DNA of 64,000 nt from an uncultured Pseudodesulfovibrio sp. (GTDB lineage Bacteria; Desulfobacterota; Desulfovibrionia; Desulfovibrionales; Desulfovibrionaceae): contig NZ_OY776488.1 in NCBI RefSeq assembly GCF_963675635.1, positions 1,463,501 to 1,527,500 on the forward strand, given 5' to 3'. Positions 21,205-22,690 of the stretch are shown here, in pieces. The position numbers and the translations under genes are program-made. A model generated the notes under the pieces. That model was not told the DNA's origin and ran no database searches. It worked only from the letters and a program-made list of their open reading frames with translations. Numbering within the stretch: the first letter of the stretch is position 1; each line of letters opens with the position of its first letter.

Positions 21205-21228
21205 GTCGTAGACTGACACATTAAATTA

Positions 21229-21269
21229 TCGCCCTGTCCGGCTCTCGCCGGACAGGGCGATTTCTTTTT
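21229..21269 (+). terminator. Strong intrinsic terminator after pnp
   Basis: A 14-bp perfect stem (21229-21242 with 21247-21260, core CGCCCTGTCCGG) and a four-base loop is followed by TTTCTTTTT. This closes the tRNA-Gly to pnp transcription unit. Confidence 0.93.
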
Positions 21270-21417
21270 GGCTTCCTTCACTTAACTCCTGTCATCTCTT
21301 TTCCAAAACGTGCGCATCGCTTCGCGAAGCGTTGTGCAAAATTAATGATCCGTTTTATCTGGAAGCATAGACAAGATAAATTGGTGGGTGTAATTGAAGA
21401 GAGAAAGGAGATACACC

Positions 21418-21621
21418 ATGGCCGATATGATTATTTATGGAAAATCGACCTGACCGCATACCAAGCGGGCGTTGGATGCACACCCGGAAGCAAAGTTTGT
21501 AGACGTCTTGATGAACCCGGCAGATCTGGAAACAATGCTCACGTTCTCAAAAGGCGAGCGCAAGATTCCTGTCATAGTTCACAATGGACAGGTTATTATC
21601 GGTTACAATCGAGGCTCATGA
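21418..21621 (+). CDS. Uxx-star type glutaredoxin-like selenoprotein (Sec at in-frame TGA)
   Basis: Starting at the ATG at 21418, with AAGGAG eight bases upstream, the frame reads MADMIIYGKST, then TGA at 21451-21453, then PHTKRALDAHPEAKFVDV and on to a second TGA at 21619. Reading the first TGA as selenocysteine gives 67 residues with a thioredoxin/glutaredoxin layout. The layout is a beta strand (MIIYG), a U-P-H-T redox site where glutaredoxins have C-P-x-C/T, a helix, then KIPVIVHNGQVIIG with the cis-proline (IPV) and the final strand. Similarity before and after the TGA is continuous, and a hairpin follows it immediately. A weak promoter (TTGTGC, 17 bases, TTATCT at 21332-21360) precedes the gene. 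The family name is from memory of the Uxx-star annotation; the redox function is inferred. Confidence 0.88.
21451..21479 (+). promoter_or_regulatory. Candidate bacterial SECIS element
   Basis: Right after the TGA, GCAT-A-CCAA (21456-21464, bulged A) pairs with TTGGATGC (21472-21479) around the loop GCGGGCG, which begins with G. The loop starts 11 bases after the UGA. Bacterial SECIS hairpins lie just downstream of the Sec codon with a short G-containing loop, so size and position suit SelB recruitment. Spacing is at the short end of what is usual. Confidence 0.65.
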
Positions 21622-21658
21622 CATGTATAGAATTTCGACAGGTTGCCGAAAAAATAAA

Positions 21659-21693
21659 AATCCCGGAGAGAACTCTTCGGGATTCATTTTTTT
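21659..21693 (+). terminator. Intrinsic terminator after the selenoprotein gene
   Basis: AATCCCGGAGAG (21659-21670) pairs with CTCTTCGGGATT (21673-21684), one G-U pair, then CATTTTTTT. It supports the selenoprotein gene being a short monocistronic unit ending before the convergent MEMO-family gene. Confidence 0.88.
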
Positions 21694-21734: not shown

Positions 21735-22544
21735 TCAACTGACCAAAACCCCCGCATACCCCACGACCTGATCGAAGTCGCCTGAGACCTCCCCGGATGT
21801 AGCGTACGCGACCAATTCGCCATGAGTAGCCCCCATTTCCAGTGCGGCGTAAAGACCTGTGGTCATGGGAAGCACACCGCACATGGAAATATTGTTCCCC
21901 CGAACCGTGCTGAATAAACCGGCTGGGTCGAGTGTAACCACTGCTTCCAGAGCCAGAGAATCCTTCTTCTTGGCTTCGTCGTGTGTGATGTAGTGGCTCA
22001 TGTCGGAACTGACCACGATTGACACAGGTCGATCAAACGACTTAAGCGCCTGTCCTATGGCCTGCCCAACCCGCCTCAGGGAGTCGTGGGACGATGATGA
22101 GATGGAAATCGGCACTATGGTCGTAAAAGGGTCCAAACGTCGTAGAAACGGCAATATAACCTCAAGAGAGTGCTCCCCCATATGCGCGGCTGTGTCGGCT
22201 TCCAAGGTCTTGTCCGCCGCAAGCAGCACTTCAGCCAATTCCTGATCAACAGTCATGGAACCGCCAGGGATATTCCAATCTCCTTCATTCCAAACCGAAA
22301 ATTGCGCCCCGCGCCCTGTATGGTTCGGGCCGAGCAAGAGAACTGTCTGTTCCAAATTCGCCATACCCAGTGTCTTCCCGCACACAGCCCCGGAAAAGAC
22401 ATATCCGGCATGAGGCACCATGGCGAGCACCGTCCGTTCTTCATACTTATCCTTCCCCAACCCGAGAAAAGCATCCACCATGGCATACAGCTTTTCAGGG
22501 TGCGCATCATAAAACCGCCCCGCAACAACCGGCTGTCTCTTCAT
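21735..22544 (-). CDS. amrB: MEMO1 / AmmeMemoRadiSam system protein B
   Basis: The 269-residue product begins MKRQPVVAGRFYDAHPEKL and contains the MEMO-family blocks VPHAGYVFSGAVCGKTL, LLGPNHTGRG, MGEHSLEVILPFL, and IVVSSDMSHYI, with conserved His residues that resemble an extradiol-dioxygenase metal site. In prokaryotes the gene often neighbours AMMECR1 and a radical SAM gene, forming the AmmeMemoRadiSam group of unknown reaction; neither partner is next to it here. The start at 22544 has GGAGGAG upstream. Upstream in-frame sequence to 22667 lacks family similarity. Confidence 0.9.
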   Translation of the reverse strand: MKRQPVVAGRFYDAHPEKLYAMVDAFLGLGKDKYEERTVLAMVPHAGYVFSGAVCGKTLGMANLEQTVLLLGPNHTGRGAQFSVWNEGDWNIPGGSMTVDQELAEVLLAADKTLEADTAAHMGEHSLEVILPFLRRLDPFTTIVPISISSSSHDSLRRVGQAIGQALKSFDRPVSIVVSSDMSHYITHDEAKKKDSLALEAVVTLDPAGLFSTVRGNNISMCGVLPMTTGLYAALEMGATHGELVAYATSGEVSGDFDQVVGYAGVLVS

Positions 22545-22690
22545 GTCGATACTCCTCCAGAATCTCGCGATCCACTTGTAGTCTGCATAATAGCACCAGA
22601 TCACAGAACTGACCACCCGCGTGAGTATAGATACACAAAGCTCAAAAAATGGAAGAGCGGGAGCCACAGGGGAAAGTGACGGAGGCTTCT

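Follow-up and report, generated by a model that had tools for sequence, protein, structure and literature searches.

UXX-star selenoprotein family 1 (NCBIfam NF041114) is a catalogued protein family of unproven function. In the passages of the review PMC13188914 that deal with it, the family is listed in a table as UxxT with two selenocysteines (Sec) and is called 'distant Grx-like protein 1', and both the family and its two Sec residues are therefore already on record. The same passages credit family 1 to PMC2398784; the term 'distant Grx' does not occur in the passages of that paper considered here, in which the Grx-like entry is a UxxC protein. Neighboring NCBIfam models describe UXX-star families 2 and 3 and the parent Uxx_star (NF041211, NF047338, and NF041212), and E. 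coli Grx3 (PDB 1fov) is matched by the family 1 profile with an E value of 4e-8.

The gene described here lies in a 64,000-nucleotide stretch of the genome of an uncultured Pseudodesulfovibrio sp. (contig NZ_OY776488.1), called the window below, and all coordinates are those of the window. When Sec was entered as Cys, the product that ends before the second in-frame TGA (67 residues) scored 89.8 bits against NF041114 in a profile search, where the cut-off is 72. The 70-residue product obtained by reading through that TGA scored 98.4 bits, the last three residues raising the score and filling the profile from position 1 to 70. The protein is a member of family 1. Every feature tested agrees between the protein and the family, including the score above cut-off, the full-length profile match, the UxxT site, two Sec codons, and a C-terminal Sec followed by two residues and a stop (S-U-H-V-TAG in the window protein). 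The tail itself reads R-G-S-U-H-V here, whereas most members from outside the window's own bacterial family have G-G-S/T-U-G-V. Alignments to the other three UXX-star models also cover most of the length, but the scores fall below the respective cut-offs (38.2 bits against 100 for NF041211, 29.6 against 97 for NF047338, and 54.3 against 66 for NF041212), the first of which places the protein outside family 2.

An earlier note on this DNA had proposed a glutaredoxin-like protein with a small thioredoxin-like fold and a cis-Pro in an IPV motif. The glutaredoxin-like character is supported, as the Pfam Glutaredoxin model (PF00462) matches at 29.9 bits against a cut-off of 22.9, and the proline is Pro51 in KIPV, invariant across 65 aligned sequences. 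The protein departs from classical glutaredoxins in two respects. The second Cys of the CxxC site is replaced by Thr (U-P-H-T), and the chain ends at residue 70 with a Sec on its tail, whereas the 1fov chain has 82 residues. The resemblance to the UXX-star family had been recognized from U-P-H-T; the membership stands, but the name probably refers to the C-terminal Sec-x-x-stop rather than to U-P-H-T, because in 123 of the 132 members compared below just two codons lie between the second TGA and the stop. A plasmid search with the window protein gave no match.

Organization of the locus and Sec machinery

The locus almost certainly encodes a glutaredoxin-like protein of 70 residues, in which positions 12 and 68 are both Sec. 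Its features are as follows.

21228-21261, plus strand: terminator-like hairpin 3' of the upstream pnp (terminator scan)
21404-21410, plus strand: ribosome-binding site AAAGGAG, 7 nt upstream of the ATG (from the sequence)
21418-21630, plus strand: UXX-star family 1 double selenoprotein gene, 70 codons and TAG (NF041114, 98.4 bits, profile positions 1-70 of 70)
21451-21453, plus strand: first Sec codon TGA, residue 12 in U-P-H-T (TGA in 95 of 132 distinct members)
21456-21479, plus strand: weak candidate SECIS 1 hairpin, named in the earlier note (-8.1 kcal/mol as drawn)
21619-21621, plus strand: second Sec codon TGA, residue 68 (TGA in 132 of 132 distinct members)
21622-21627, plus strand: last two codons, His-Val (CAT GTA; codon +2 conserved across members)
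21628-21630, plus strand: true stop TAG (from the sequence)
21633-21651, plus strand: candidate SECIS 2 hairpin, 3' of the stop (GGT loop at 21641-21643; covariation in 27 genus rows)
21659-21684, plus strand: intrinsic terminator of the selenoprotein gene, followed by a T-run (terminator scan)

The frame runs from the ATG at 21418 through 11 codons, the TGA at 21451-21453, and 55 further codons to the TGA at 21619-21621, after which come CAT GTA TAG. Up to this second TGA the sequence is just as it had been described, ribosome-binding site included. The earlier note had ended the protein there, however, at 67 residues with a single Sec. The second TGA is best read as another Sec codon, with the frame closing at the TAG at 21628-21630; the length is then 70 residues, in keeping with the rise in the NF041114 score from 89.8 to 98.4 bits, and residue 68 sits in S-U-H-V-stop as residue 12 sits in U-P-H-T. 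Comparison with relatives establishes the frame, the family, and both Sec positions at the level of sequence. The terminator that had been said to end the unit is present, T-run included, and, given the terminator-like hairpin on the pnp side (21228-21261), the selenoprotein gene is probably a stand-alone transcription unit. On the opposite strand, the downstream neighbor (21735-22667) is an AmmeMemoRadiSam system protein B of the MEMO1 family.

The machinery that such a gene calls for is also there. In the window's genome, searched as one contig of 3,519,027 bases, selA, selB, selD, and tRNA-Sec (selC) each scored above cut-off, selD with one in-frame TGA, and the organism presumably decodes Sec. 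Both TGA codons would be decoded by SelB and tRNA-Sec, and decoding of the second would rely on the hairpin just 3' of the true stop.

Residues 12 and 68 across the family

Relatives were drawn from the genus, the order, and the phylum. NF041114 matched above its cut-off in 100 of 395 phylum genomes, and a family match was found in 37 of 60 genomes searched, the window's own genome included. We made a family profile from the first 67 loci. With it, 137 loci scored at least 64 bits, of which 134 were parsed and 132 were distinct, the own copy included. The codon for residue 68 is TGA in all 132, a count that describes the family as so defined, namely members scoring at least 64 bits on a profile that itself derives from 67 of these members. 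Residue 12 is encoded by TGA in 95 members, by a Cys codon in 36 (TGC in 25 and TGT in 11), and by GGA (Gly) in one, and the check proposed earlier, a search for homologs with Sec or Cys at the TGA at 21451, thus came out in favor of the gene.

Loci outside the count show the same tail. The three that were not parsed (L126, L134, and L136) and an uncounted second tandem copy in L065 all have TGA at the residue-68 place, and four further listed family 1 places (L222 to L225), one of which had been listed as lacking TGA, have TGA in each tail; L222 has Cys at the first site and an insert ahead of its GGTU tail. Ten loci scoring below 64 bits (33 to 58) were dropped, among them L151 with a U-x-x-stop tail, the others having ordinary or different tails.

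Three members (L124, L139, and L142) have a full CxxC site and still keep the C-terminal Sec, which is therefore not merely a substitute for a missing second Cys. We looked for Cys at residue 68 by running the parent model NF041212 on the 395 genomes and fetching 11 matches, mostly chosen for lacking the TGA; none of these 11 had Cys at the aligned position. In one ordinary Grx-like protein (L218) a GGCDD loop puts a Cys near that position, and another match (L217) duplicates L105, which belongs to family 1 and has Sec. Some distant relatives have Sec or Ser at the tail place, not Cys (GGUGF at the end of L214 and L215, GGSEF in L211, and GGSEV in L212), and the remaining fetched matches have other tails.

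Sec and Cys within one genus

The gene was found in 30 of 36 genus genomes. Residue 12 is Sec in 7 of them and Cys in 23, whereas residue 68 is encoded by TGA in all 30. The fetched flanks of these loci contain pnp in 26 cases and a MEMO-type gene in 27. The genus is in effect a natural experiment, in which the same gene, mostly beside pnp, varies between Sec and Cys at residue 12 and invariably has Sec at residue 68, and this contrast could be used to test what selenium does in UXX-star family 1. We found no report of such a contrast within one genus in the literature as covered here, which comprises passages of the two papers cited above.

A pnp DNA tree with 25 genus rows gives 3 changes at residue 12 (p-AU 0.032 against a single Sec clade). 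A PNP protein tree with 37 rows, outgroups among them, gives 4, or 5 if only losses are admitted. The well-supported branches alone force 1 change in each tree, and for this reason a gain of Sec from Cys at residue 12 is neither shown nor excluded.

Six of the 36 genus genomes searched gave no family match (G003, G004, G008, G016, G026, and G029). In the first three, the interval between pnp and the MEMO-type gene is kept (L190, L191, and L189, respectively), with no UXX-star gene detected inside it, and the gene seems to have been lost whole rather than converted to a Cys-68 form. The loci of G016 and G026 are without the MEMO-type gene, and G029 gave no pnp match.

Proposed role of the C-terminal Sec

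The best trees have residue 12 switching between Sec and Cys some three or more times within the genus, and residue 68 is Sec in 30 of 30 genus members. On this basis we suggest, tentatively and with somewhat less than even confidence, that family 1 depends on C-terminal selenium, with a Sec68 that Cys cannot replace, a tail selenol at the center of catalysis or binding, and a SECIS element placed past the stop. If this is true, the tail selenol and not the classical active site would be central to the protein. A reading that ends at the second TGA misses the protein's most conserved reactive residue.

In the chemistry that we propose, the Sec68 selenol would be the obligatory reactive group, carried on a short tail at the point where a normal glutaredoxin enters its last helix, and residue 12, whether Sec or Cys, would be its redox partner. 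As a small reductase, the protein would alternate between the reduced state and a selenenylsulfide or diselenide that joins residues 12 and 68. The tail Sec retained in the CxxC members L124, L139, and L142 suggests this division of roles, with the tail selenol as the main reactive group and residue 12 as the partner. We put the chance of a 12-68 redox pair just short of even. The gene reading and this mechanism taken jointly, with the weight on the gene reading, are likely to be right.

It is also worth considering that the main role could be the binding of soft metals or metalloids, with the two selenols (or Cys and Sec) holding mercury, arsenic, or copper, although we consider this unlikely. 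The passages of PMC13188914 on UXX-star proteins allow that their Sec may be a metal ligand or may meet other unknown substrates, and the absence of Cys at residue 68 from all members counted would be consistent with a particular requirement for selenium. On the other hand, the active-site loop is of the glutaredoxin type, and no neighbor recurred in more than 5 of 19 loci when the neighbors were clustered. That sample covered regions of up to ~10 kb; it includes L183, which is short on one side, and leaves out L175, which has no copy. The neighbor clusters that span four or five loci are mainly those of a single set (L176, L177, L180, and L185). Of five neighbor proteins inspected at L177, three are presumably an endonuclease III, an NDK, and a protein of the RlmN type. 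Between the two roles, the redox pair is the one that we prefer.

Candidate SECIS hairpins

The published SECIS model, as given in the relevant passages of PMC13188914, has a loop of 3-9 nt with an early G, a stem of 4-16 bp, a distance of 16-37 nt from the UGA, and a minimum free energy of -7.5 kcal/mol or lower. A hairpin with a G-first loop had been placed near the first TGA, and it can indeed be drawn (GCAU-A-CCAA / UUGG-AUGC, with a G-first loop of 7 nt and -8.1 kcal/mol). However, the stretch has a different minimum-energy fold (-10.3 kcal/mol) and is no more stable than expected by chance (169 of 200 shuffles were equal or better), and the loop of the hairpin starts 11 nt past the TGA, as opposed to the 16-37 nt of the model in PMC13188914. 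This hairpin is a weak SECIS candidate, and among the candidates examined at the window's first TGA none agreed with the published model on all points.

Across the family, a stem of at least 5 follows the first TGA in 62 of the 95 members with Sec at residue 12, compared with 15 of the 37 others (Fisher p 0.011); requiring an early loop G as well gives 59 of 95 and 11 of 37 (p 0.001), in tests that count related rows as independent. Only 9 of the 95 reach the published limit of -7.5. The 15 of 37 is more than the quarter seen in random stretches, and part of the signal at the first TGA is therefore not SECIS.

The second TGA is followed by a more regular structure. A stem of at least 5, with the loop starting at base 19-29 from the T, was found in 121 of 132 members and in 649 of 2640 random same-locus stretches, and a strict search for the published geometry reached -7.5 kcal/mol in 95 of 132 members versus 43 of 660 random stretches. 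Among the loops, GGT and GGC are the most frequent, and the distance from the TGA hardly varies. Within the genus, 7 of 8 pairs changed on both sides, and the covariation score was 0.410, compared with 0.191 for shuffled alignments; none of 500 reached it, and slid versions of the pairing scored lower. These figures come from 27 of the 30 rows, without L004 (a near copy of L003) and without L022 and L025, which lack a clear common hairpin, and the covariation figure is slightly flattering as a result.

The window's own copy of this hairpin is a poor representative. Its loop and its 19-nt distance fit the published model, but an A-C mismatch two pairs below the loop breaks the stem after two pairs, and at -2.6 kcal/mol its energy is weaker than the limit. 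In the strict search, the window gave -0.3 kcal/mol after the first TGA and 0 after the second, where the family medians are -5.0 and -9.7. The mismatch, and a strict energy of 0 kcal/mol against -4.5, -7.2, and -13.2 in L002, L003, and L018, might be taken as signs of a decaying gene, in which one pair of SECIS 2 is gone and the window's organism is losing the ability to decode residue 68. We regard decay as improbable, since the frame is intact and protein identity with the closest relative in the genus is 84%, and the pair that is mismatched here is variable in the genus anyway (GC in 17 rows, GU in 4, AU in 4, and other in 2, n = 27). A gene with two Sec codons remains our preferred reading for the window.

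The second TGA as codon or stop

The sequence beyond the second TGA behaves as coding sequence up to the next stop. Codon +2 encodes Val, Ile, Leu, or Ala in 132 of 132 members with its third base free, and codon +1 is less conserved. In the 123 rows with exactly two codons, the entropies by base are 0.55, 0.07, and 1.88 bits for codon +2 and 1.36, 1.28, and 1.70 bits for codon +1, whereas the first codon past the true stop is near random (1.98, 1.90, and 1.98). The real stops of the 132 members are mixed (TGA in 67, TAG in 34, and TAA in 31). Under this usage, 132 consecutive TGA codons would have p ~10^-39 if the rows were independent, and they are related.

A protein whose only Sec is residue 12 and which really ends at the TGA after residue 67, as the earlier note had it, would have the advantage that TGA is a normal stop, that the 67-residue product already exceeds the NF041114 cut-off, and that the window's hairpin past the second TGA is weak. 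This is nevertheless very improbable in view of the TGA present in 132 of 132 members despite their mixed later stops, the coding conservation that runs on to the next stop, and the covarying hairpin at SECIS distance, and we retain Sec at residue 68. Least probable of all is that the hairpin 3' of the stop is a terminator and not a SECIS element, as its position past the stop codon might suggest, for in the window it is followed by A-rich sequence with no T-run, the scan puts the terminator at 21659-21684, and the hairpin, with GGT and GGC as its most frequent loops, keeps a nearly constant distance from the TGA.

Variant members and multiple copies

Some members depart from the common form. 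In three genus loci (L024, L029, and L030), a Cys directly precedes the tail Sec (G-C-U), giving an adjacent Cys-Sec pair. L065 and L076 (G426:C16:100071, 100496) represent two family copies in tandem, and several other genomes have two to four NF041114 matches each. An insert of about 10 residues or more is present ahead of the C-terminal Sec in L124, L126, L133 to L138, L144, and L222, and several of this subgroup also have a longer tail after the Sec or a Cys at the fourth position of the active site.
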